Positions 38,326-61,382 of a stretch of 64,000 bases of DNA are shown here, piece by piece. Below the pieces are notes generated by a model. That model was not told where the DNA came from and ran no database searches. It was given only the letters and a program-made list of their open reading frames with translations. A program made the translations under genes and the position numbers. Each line of letters opens with the position of its first letter. Positions within the stretch are counted from its first letter, which is position 1. Source of the DNA: Methanosarcina sp. MSH10X1 (GTDB lineage: Archaea > Halobacteriota > Methanosarcinia > Methanosarcinales > Methanosarcinaceae); NCBI RefSeq assembly GCF_004099695.1, contig NZ_SCHL01000005.1, positions 62,001-126,000 of the forward strand, read 5' to 3'.

Positions 38326-38486
38326 CTATTTTTTATTTCCCTGTTTTTTATTCCCTGTTTTTTATTTCCTATTTCTTATTCCCTGTTTTTATTCCCTGTT
38401 TTTATTCCCTGTTTTTATTCCCTGTTTTTATTACCTGTTTTTATTTCCCATTTTTTATTACCTGTTTTTATTTCCCATTTTTTATC
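38326..38486. repeat. 13-14-bp T-rich tandem repeat array
   Basis: About eleven copies of ATTCCCTGTTTTT-type units (variants ATTTCCCATTTTT, ATTACCTGTTTTT) with a 13-bp spacing over most of the tract (for example CCCTG at 38381, 38394, 38407 and 38420) and some 14-bp steps. It begins about 40 bases after the stop of the aconitase-family gene. Confidence 0.85.
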
Positions 38487-43544: not shown

Positions 43545-44018
43545 CAAGCCCTCTTTGAAAGGGCTTGTTTAGTGCCGCTTGACCACGCCGCTACGTTGTT
43601 TTCGATAAAGCATGCATTTTTGATCAAACTTTTTTTGAAAAAGTTTGCGATAAAACCTTTTGAGAACAGGTTTTCGCTCAAGCACAACCGTTGCGCCGGT
43701 TGATCACGCCGTTACGTGGGGATTTTCGCTCAAGCCTTTTTGTAAAAGGCTTGTGATCAAACTTTTTTTGAAAAAGTTTGCGTTGCGCCGGTTGATCACG
43801 CCGTTACGTGGGGATTTTCGCTCAAGCCTTTTTGTAAAAGGCTTGTGATCAAACTTTTTTTGAAAAAGTTTGCGTTGCGCCGGTTGATCACGCCGTTACG
43901 TGGGGATTTTCGCTCAAGCCTTTTTGTAAAAGGCTTGTGATCAAACTTTTTTTGAAAAAGTTTGCAATAAAACCTTTTCTCAAAAGGTTTTCGCTCAAGC
44001 CTTTTTTGAAAAGGCTTG
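43545..44018. repeat. Array of eleven 23-nt hairpins with 4-nt spacers
   Basis: Palindromes at 43545-43567, 43625-43647, 43652-43674, 43731-43753, 43758-43780, 43823-43845, 43850-43872, 43915-43937, 43942-43964, 43969-43991 and 43996-44018, each exactly 23 nt. Neighbours are separated by 4 nt (CGAT, TGAT, CAAT or CGCT). Arms vary in matched fashion: CAAGCC/GGCTTG, CAAACT/AGTTTG, AAAACC/GGTTTT, CAAGCCC/GGGCTTG. It starts two bases after the hmgA stop codon on the hmgA sense strand, so it would form the 3' end of that transcript. Confidence 0.88.
43691..43966. repeat. Three tandem 92-bp units inside the hairpin array
   Basis: Units start at 43691, 43783 and 43875, identical or nearly so. Each has a 42-nt linker (TTGCGCCGGTTGATCACGCC, then GTTACGTGGGGATTTTCGCT) and two hairpins. 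Near identity points to recent tandem duplication. Confidence 0.9.
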
Positions 44019-44020
44019 CG

Positions 44021-45277
44021 TTAGAACTTTCCACGGCCTAGCTGGGCATGGGCACGTGCCAGATGTCCTGCAGCCTGGGCGCCTATAAGGGAAACTTCTC
44101 CTGCAAGTACGGCAGAAGCTACAATTTCTGCAAATTTCCTGGAGTTTATTCCGGGAATATCACCTGCGCCTGTAACGCCAAGAAGATTCAGGCAATCCCT
44201 CTGGGTCCCAAGGCCAGTGCCTCCACCGACGGTTCCCACAGGCAGGGCAGGCAGAGTAACAGAACAGTGTATCTCCTCATATTTTGTAAGTTCCATACTC
44301 GTAATTGCAGTGCTTCCTTCAACAACATGAGCCGCATCCTGCCCGCAGGCGAGGTACATAGCAGCAATAACGTTTGCAGCGTGTGCATTGAAGCCGAGTG
44401 CTCCTGCTCTTGCTGAACCAAGCAGGTTTTTGCTATAGTTTACCTCAAACATTGACTCAGGCGTACATTTCAGGGTTTCCTTGACAATCTCTTTTGGAAT
44501 AGTAACTTCGGCTACAACCGTTTTTCCTCTTCCGAGAATTGTGCTTATCGAAGCCGGTTTCTTATCAGTACACATATTTCCTGAAAGGGTAACGGGATGT
44601 GCGCCGAATTCATCTTCTATCAGGTGCGTGACTGCTTCAGTAGCAATGGTCACCATATTCATACCCATGGCATCTTTTGTATCATATGAAAACCTGAGAT
44701 ATACATACGTCCCGGTTACGAAGGGCTTTACGGAAATTAATTTTCCGAACCGTGTCGTTTTTTCGGCAACGGCTTTCATTTGTTCGAAGATTTCAGGACA
44801 TTTTACCCATTCATAAAATTTCTTGGCTCTTTCAAGGCTATCAAGTTTAAAAACAGGCGCTCTGGTCATCTCATCTTCAAAAATCCTGACGTTTGCTCCT
44901 CCCGATTTCGTGATAACGGAACAGCCGCGATTTATACTGGCAACAAGGGCTCCTTCCGTTGTAGCAAGCGGGATATAGTAATCAGAGTTTGCATACTCAC
45001 CGTTTACCTTCAGAAGCCCGGCAACCCCGAGGGGGATCTGAACTGCGCCTATCATGTTTTCAATGTTTTTTTTCGATACGGCTTCCACATCAAAGGAAAA
45101 ATTCTGGATATGATCAAACTCGAGTTTTGCAAACTCCTGTATAGCAAGCCTTCTAATTTTTACTGAAGTTAGCGGGTCTGCGAACTCCTCAATCTTGCGA
45201 AGAGCCACATCTCCATCCAGAACCTTTTGTAAAAGAATTTTCTCTTCCTCACTTAATTCGTAATCCTGTAAAAACAT
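44021..45277 (-). CDS. hmgA: Hydroxymethylglutaryl-CoA reductase (class I)
   Basis: Makes mevalonate from HMG-CoA with NADPH for the isoprenoid chains of archaeal lipids. The 418-residue length and motifs are those of class I soluble enzymes: ENMIGAVQIPLGVAGLL (about 73-89), TTEGALVASINRG (about 107-119), RFSYDTKDAMGMNM (nucleotide site, about 200-213), SGNMCTDKKPA with the catalytic Lys, and GTVGGGTGLGTQRDCL (about 355-370). A His in AAGHLARAHAQL near the end is the catalytic acid. AGGTGAT precedes the ATG. The stop is followed at once by the hairpin array. Unusual direct repeats lie 170-215 bases upstream of the start. Confidence 0.96.
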   Translation of the reverse strand: MFLQDYELSEEEKILLQKVLDGDVALRKIEEFADPLTSVKIRRLAIQEFAKLEFDHIQNFSFDVEAVSKKNIENMIGAVQIPLGVAGLLKVNGEYANSDYYIPLATTEGALVASINRGCSVITKSGGANVRIFEDEMTRAPVFKLDSLERAKKFYEWVKCPEIFEQMKAVAEKTTRFGKLISVKPFVTGTYVYLRFSYDTKDAMGMNMVTIATEAVTHLIEDEFGAHPVTLSGNMCTDKKPASISTILGRGKTVVAEVTIPKEIVKETLKCTPESMFEVNYSKNLLGSARAGALGFNAHAANVIAAMYLACGQDAAHVVEGSTAITSMELTKYEEIHCSVTLPALPVGTVGGGTGLGTQRDCLNLLGVTGAGDIPGINSRKFAEIVASAVLAGEVSLIGAQAAGHLARAHAQLGRGKF

Positions 45278-60926: not shown

Positions 60927-61071
60927 TAATTTACCGTTAAGGATTTACCGCTGGTAAATGCAATATCGGTAAATTTATTCCTTATTTACTTTTCATTTTT
61001 TATTAAATTTCTATTCTTCCAATTTGGCTTTGTCGTTATTTTTTCTCTGTATTCTTGATTATCTTCATTTT

Positions 61072-61214
61072 TCGTTATGTATTTTCGTTATGTGTTTCCG
61101 TTATTTATTTCCGTTATTTATTTCCGTTATTTATTTCCGTTATTTATTTCCGTTATTTATTTTCGTTATTTATTTTCGTTATTTATTTTCGTTATTTATT
61201 TTCGTTATGTACTT
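61072..61214. repeat. 13-bp T-rich tandem repeat array, eleven copies
   Basis: Eleven consecutive 13-bp units with strict spacing (starts at 61072, 61085, 61098 and so on to 61202), consensus CCGTTATTTATTT in the first half and TCGTTATTTATTT in the second, with TATGT variants at the ends. It lies 170 bases upstream of the secreted-protein gene. Confidence 0.93.
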
Positions 61215-61382
61215 TGTTATCTGTATTTTTTCCGTTATGTACGTATTTTGTTATCGATACCCTTTACTGACTGTATCTCTCGCTACTCAATCTTTTTTAT
61301 CTGCATTTCCATTCATTTTATCCTGTTCTGGATTTTAGTTGTATCAATAACTTTTTTATATTCCTCTCTCTTATTTTCAATT

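Follow-up and report, generated by a model that had tools for sequence, protein, structure and literature searches.

A hairpin array downstream of hmgA in Methanosarcina is probably one copy of a clade-specific, REP/BIME-like intergenic DNA repeat

Introduction

In Methanosarcina sp. MSH10X1 the gene for hydroxymethylglutaryl-CoA reductase (hmgA) is followed immediately by a cluster of short palindromes whose arms differ from one to the next. A first-pass annotation of this DNA, noting that both arms change together, took the pattern as a covariation signal and proposed that the cluster acts as RNA. Here we ask what the cluster is, and whether the pairing of its arms reflects selection on a transcript or the history of a DNA element. 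We refer to the whole stretch of 64,000 nucleotides (64 kb) that was analysed as the window. The question extends beyond one gene: the best descriptions of REP-like repeats come from bacteria, and the palindromes after hmgA belong to an archaeal family that is abundant in Methanosarcina, for which genetic tools exist. Covarying arms in a set of palindromic repeats do not by themselves give evidence of RNA function; a test that distinguishes the two strands, through orientation and the balance of G-U against A-C mispairs, is needed.

Results

Eleven palindromes begin two bases from the hmgA stop codon

The hmgA open reading frame, encoding hydroxymethylglutaryl-CoA reductase (NADPH), occupies 44021-45277 on the minus strand (PF00368, E=1.1e-140; TIGR00533 above cut-off). 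Its TAA stop codon, which reads TTA on the plus strand at 44021-44023, is followed by CG and then by the array, whose last palindrome ends at 44018, just as the first-pass annotation had placed it. Its count also stands: 43545-44018 contains 11 palindromes of 23 nt, each with a 10-bp stem and a 3-nt loop, 9 of them perfect and 2 with one mispair each. The window as a whole has 18 palindromes of 23 nt, against 0-6 per shuffled window, and 11 of the 18 fall within these 474 bp, a density far beyond chance.

Read on the minus strand, the hairpin closest to the hmgA stop is hairpin 11 (43996-44018, CAAGCC/GGCTTG), with a predicted RNA fold of -10.7 kcal/mol, followed by hairpin 10 (43969-43991, AAAACC/GGTTTT; -6.6 kcal/mol), hairpin 9 (43942-43964, CAAACT/AGTTTG; -5.9 kcal/mol) and hairpin 8 (43915-43937, CAAGCC/GGCTTG; -10.7 kcal/mol). 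The palindrome scan places further CAAACT/AGTTTG hairpins at 43850-43872 (hairpin 7), 43758-43780 (hairpin 5) and 43625-43647 (hairpin 2), and further CAAGCC/GGCTTG hairpins at 43823-43845 (hairpin 6) and 43731-43753 (hairpin 4). The mispaired units are hairpin 3 (43652-43674, AAAACC/GGTTTT), which folds as RNA over 7 bp only, and hairpin 1 at the far edge (43545-43567, CAAGCCC), whose single DNA mispair is a G-U on the minus strand and which is common to genome G029.

The palindromes had been described as uniformly 4 nt apart. This holds for 6 of the 10 gaps (one CGAT, three TGAT, one CAAT and one CGCT), but the other four are far longer, the gaps in order of position being 57, 4, 56, 4, 42, 4, 42, 4, 4 and 4 nt. 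The 42-57-nt gaps contain conserved spacer modules, among them a 57-nt module at 43568-43624 that ends in GATAAAGCATGCATTTTTGAT and a 42-nt module, CGTTGCGCCGGTTGATCACGCCGTTACGTGGGGATTTTCGCT, at 43781-43822 and again at 43873-43914, both with related spacers at other loci. Duplication of modules changes the element, as is seen at hmgA itself, where a 92-bp unit consisting of the 42-nt spacer and two hairpins with TGAT between them is present as an exact tandem triplication (43689-43965; period 92, 3.0 copies, 100% matches), so that 6 of the 11 hairpins are copies of two.

We note other repeats in the window: a smaller related pair of hairpins at 256-316, AGAACTTTTTTCAAAAGGCTTTT and AAAGCCTTTTTTCAAAAGGCTTT, likewise about 23 nt long, and two tandem arrays with a 13-nt period, one at 61069-61220 (TTTTCGTTATTTA x 11.8) and one at 38330-38485 (TTTTTATTCCCTG x 11.5).

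The array belongs to a dispersed, polar and composite family

The hmgA array matches 91 pieces across the same genome, which contains 94 exact tandem pairs of the 23+4 pattern (49 forward, 45 reverse) against 0 for a reversed-pattern control. Seven arrays of at least two units occur in an unselected 400-kb sample, from which we extrapolate about 60-62 per genome. Gene calls came from a simple codon model, and the analysis covered sampled stretches and array loci, that is, part of each genome.

The element is polar and composite; it lies between genes, near stop codons, and can point either way. Its plus form starts with ACCGTTGACCCGAA-type repeats and continues with GC-rich conserved spacer modules (for example GCGCCGGTTKATCACGC... 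and CGTTGCGCCGGTTTATCACGC...GATAAAGCATGCGTTTTTGAT), followed by a few types of 23-nt palindrome joined by the linkers CGAT, CGCT, TGAT or CGGT and, at the end, by degenerate palindromes. Loop polarity is kept (CAA 214 versus TTG 14; GAG 58 versus CTC 3). Adjacent hairpins are mostly unlike, 154 of 176 neighbours differing in type and 22 sharing the same left arm, and they follow preferred orders, namely AAAACT to CAAGCC (25), AAAACC to CAAGCC (22) and CAAGCC to CAAACT (16). The arms in the window thus differ because the modules differ; they are not eleven versions of one site.

The view that the 23+4 geometry belongs to no described family has so far been upheld, in that a real, recurrent family exists and an Rfam scan of the window returned three tRNAs only, with no match in the array at gathering score. 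Nor is the repeat described in the open-access literature that we searched.

The element arose once within Methanosarcina and its site at hmgA is old

Array matches are present in 16 of 31 Methanosarcina genomes, two of them weak, so that half of the genus is without the element. The 14 strong carriers are monophyletic on the hmgA tree (100/99 support), requiring one change, and a single gain of the element on this tree is clear. No unit was found in a 400-kb sample of one non-carrier genome, and none by a search for the 23+4 pattern in a sample of 13 further genera of the family. A scan of all prokaryote genomes available to us gave matches in Methanosarcina only, and plasmid and phage records gave no match to the array; absences that rest on BLAST may miss diverged copies. 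In viral contigs there were 7 matches to a 17-nt spacer pattern; 7 matches to one hairpin pattern were taken as chance, their sequence being unrelated and without array motifs.

In at least 12 carriers the element lies directly after the hmgA stop, usually at TAACG or a close variant, whereas non-carriers have unrelated sequence there; the C-terminus of the reductase, GRGKF, is the same in all genomes compared. The array is in the minus form in G000 and G029, and most other carriers have the plus form with different modules. This kept position, together with the differing forms, indicates that the site at hmgA is old and that its content and orientation turn over. Presence at the hmgA stop in at least 12 species could reflect a retained function.

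Arm pairing does not follow the transcribed strand

Among 510 units collected family-wide without a pairing requirement, Watson-Crick pairs at the three variable positions number 407, 393 and 391, against 302, 226 and 252 expected under independence, counts that are not independent events because the units are related copies. That the arms change together thus holds across the family, but the hairpins in the window are recurring types rather than in-place compensatory mutants, and arm covariation does not show RNA function.

If the hairpins were nevertheless selected as RNA, the array would be a 3'-UTR element serving mRNA stability, processing or the binding of a structure-specific protein or RNase. 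The family-wide covariation fits such an element, as do the folding of single units as RNA (-5 to -13 kcal/mol), the start of many arrays 1-4 nt after a stop codon and the persistence of the array after hmgA through the clade. However, selection on RNA would be expected to leave an orientation bias, a tolerance of G-U pairs and a loss of pairing in arrays between divergent genes, and none of the three is seen. Arrays between genes of the same direction are transcribed equally in the two orientations (24 versus 24), and the transcribed strand has 38 G-U against 44 A-C mispairs, with no wobble preference. Arrays between divergent genes lie outside the transcripts of both neighbours, yet they are similarly paired (8.79 Watson-Crick pairs per unit, compared with 8.95 in tandem and 9.21 in convergent regions; differences not significant). 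Moreover, the hmgA site holds opposite orientations in different species, mispaired units recur, and the orthologous loci at TFB and OYE are without arrays in most other carrier species. The proposal that the array acts as RNA is not supported by these comparisons, and we regard selection of the hairpins as RNA as unlikely. There is an excess of G-U among distinct units read in the plus form (80, versus 39 A-C), which follows the element and not transcription.

The first-pass annotation had named the loss of pairing among copies as evidence against its reading, and such loss is found in part: of 441 oriented units, 175 contain one or more pairs that are not Watson-Crick. Recurrent mispaired variants include CAAGCCTTTT CAA AAAATCCTTG and CAAGCC/GGGTTG, the latter in tandem runs. 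Locus L196 (6544-6809) shows that tandem amplification of mispaired units can occur: it has eight copies of CAAGCCTTTTTTGAAAAGGGTTG, all with the same mispair, of which six form a single run with a 27-nt period.

Pairing might instead matter at the level of DNA, with the palindromes bound by a dimeric DNA-binding protein or a nucleoid protein, or serving as cruciform sites, and with the 27-bp spacing being important. The palindromes persist whichever way the element points and in every intergenic class, the 27-nt period of units is found again in other species, and the DNA strand of the array folds far better than shuffles (z -11.6), although this score largely restates the palindromes. Against this, related species differ strongly in how many copies they have and where these lie, half of the genus does without the element, the long spacers break the 27-bp phase and there is no known candidate protein, and we consider a dedicated DNA site of this kind improbable.

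Arrays lie close to stop codons and supply U-tracts in both directions

Array edges are within 30 nt of a stop codon in 21 cases and within 30 nt of a start codon in 2. Arrays prefer convergent to divergent regions, with borderline significance (p about 0.05-0.06), and avoiding promoters would produce such a bias too. In the hmgA array, the sense strand of hmgA has 11 runs of at least four T and the opposite strand 17, compared with shuffled means of 1.1 and 4.5, and a scan found no bacterial-type intrinsic terminator (a GC-rich hairpin with a U-run) inside the array. In Methanococcus maripaludis two U4-tracts are enough for aCPSF1 binding and U4-tracts drive termination, and Term-seq of M. 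mazei showed U-rich 3' ends without preceding hairpins (PMC8716108). Judged from its sequence, a role of the array in 3'-end formation or termination through U-tracts, and not through hairpins, is possible, and ending transcription from both sides would be its most plausible consequence.

Possible traces of insertion and the search for a mobilising enzyme

The TFB gene is followed by a 248-bp array in this genome and by none in G006, G029 or G013. Beyond the array, 22 nt of the gene end recur with the stop codon included (17/22 identical), and at a second locus, L083, a 32-nt gene-end copy scores above all 3306 control pairs. These copies suggest, but do not establish, that insertion duplicated the gene end. 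Clear copies flank only two of about 57-58 array sides, with a small overall excess over controls, so target-site duplication is suggestive but not general. It seems improbable to us that the element is a gene-end-targeting archaeal mobile repeat that copies 22-32 bp together with the stop codon, keeps the gene intact and adds a two-way terminator array.

A gene-end copy at pdxS was discarded because it is positioned inside the next gene, and the OYE locus was unusable for assessing target duplication, since gene-end-like repeats are present there even without an array. These repeats lie 3' of the OYE-like gene at L299, L300 and L303, where the end of that gene (TTTGAGTAAAGGAT) recurs in several degenerate copies, also at loci that have no array. 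After pdxS, at L241, L243, L250 and L255, we observe a GC-rich intergenic repeat (CCCGAGTCCCGTCTCGGGAGGACGGGGCCCTTTTCGCTTCGCTCAAGAGGGCTGA and relatives) that looks dispersed and also occurs in array-free genomes.

A non-autonomous element that depends on a known transposase, whether a classical REP with its RAYT or a MITE mobilised by an IS family, would likewise be dispersed, near stop codons and missing at some orthologous sites, and could leave duplications such as the 22-32 nt gene-end copies at TFB and L083. However, G030, a carrier that is 99% complete in two contigs and has 39 array matches, gives no match to the transposase domain Y1_Tnp (PF01797); G026 gives none either, and this genome gives a single one. 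We therefore rejected a RAYT/Y1_Tnp partner, and a RAYT is not required now. The spacers, moreover, are not GTAG or CGTC, and no terminal inverted repeats were seen to bound an element of constant length. We consider movement by a known transposase of these kinds very unlikely, and no mobilising enzyme was identified. As a separate observation, genome G010, which is without hairpin arrays, has 79 Y1_Tnp transposase matches, many of them apparently identical.

Discussion

We conclude that the hmgA array is probably one copy of a clade-specific, polar and composite intergenic DNA repeat of a REP/BIME-like kind. Such a repeat would have spread as DNA, by insertion and tandem duplication, and would have flipped through recombination between palindromes. 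Pairing of the arms may persist because palindromic module types are inherited and homogenised. Correction of quasipalindromes by template switching is a known process, and it is possible that pairing is aided by such correction or by use of the palindromes at the DNA level.

The effect of the array at hmgA would most likely be incidental, in that it supplies U-tracts both ways. With so many U-tracts in both directions, transcription of hmgA and antisense transcription from the opposite side would tend to stop inside the array in the aCPSF1/U-tract manner. If the arrays do terminate transcription, then core genes of one clade, hmgA and TFB among them, have had their 3' ends rewritten by the spread of the element. 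The single gain on the tree is of value here, as the species without the element are natural controls.

The element has features in common with several known classes of repeat. A CRISPR array can be ruled out, as the spacers are either 4 nt long or repeated modules and the repeats differ in order. The closest likeness is to the REP and BIME sequences of bacteria, which form the GTAG and CGTC superfamilies (PMC3733652): these too are short palindromes of 20-40 bp, present in many intergenic copies, frequently right after genes, either as single units or as mosaic clusters joined by short linkers, and clade-specific. The general description of a REP, a palindrome of 20-40 bp in many intergenic copies, applies to the Methanosarcina element. 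In contrast to REP and BIME sequences, however, this element is archaeal, has a 27-nt period, carries polar palindromes in the same orientation and contains conserved GC-rich spacer modules. The GTAG and CGTC tags are absent, and AGCG, ATCA, ATCG and ACCG (minus form) flank 416 of 441 oriented units; the alternating orientation of BIMEs is not found either, as the loops keep their polarity. Lacking the tags, a RAYT partner and alternating orientation, the element is a variant of REP/BIME and not a member. A recent survey of REPs that includes archaea leaves out Methanosarcina (PMC12306157).

Like prokaryotic MITEs, the element is non-coding, dispersed, AT-rich and palindromic, and is present or absent at orthologous sites; unlike them, it varies in length by module duplication, shows no terminal inverted repeats at fixed ends in the loci examined and has suggestive target duplication at two loci only, TFB and L083. 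With the bacterial STAR and RU/ERIC sequences it shares the character of a dispersed intergenic repeat with variable module number and species-specific abundance (PMC3532100, PMC2759123), although its sequence is unrelated and it belongs to another domain of life. Finally, the element resembles aCPSF1-dependent archaeal U-tract terminators in having many T4-T7 tracts per strand right after stop codons (PMC8716108). It differs from them in that its U-tracts lie inside the arms of palindromes and the unit is repeated, and it is as such a putative terminator that the array may act at hmgA.
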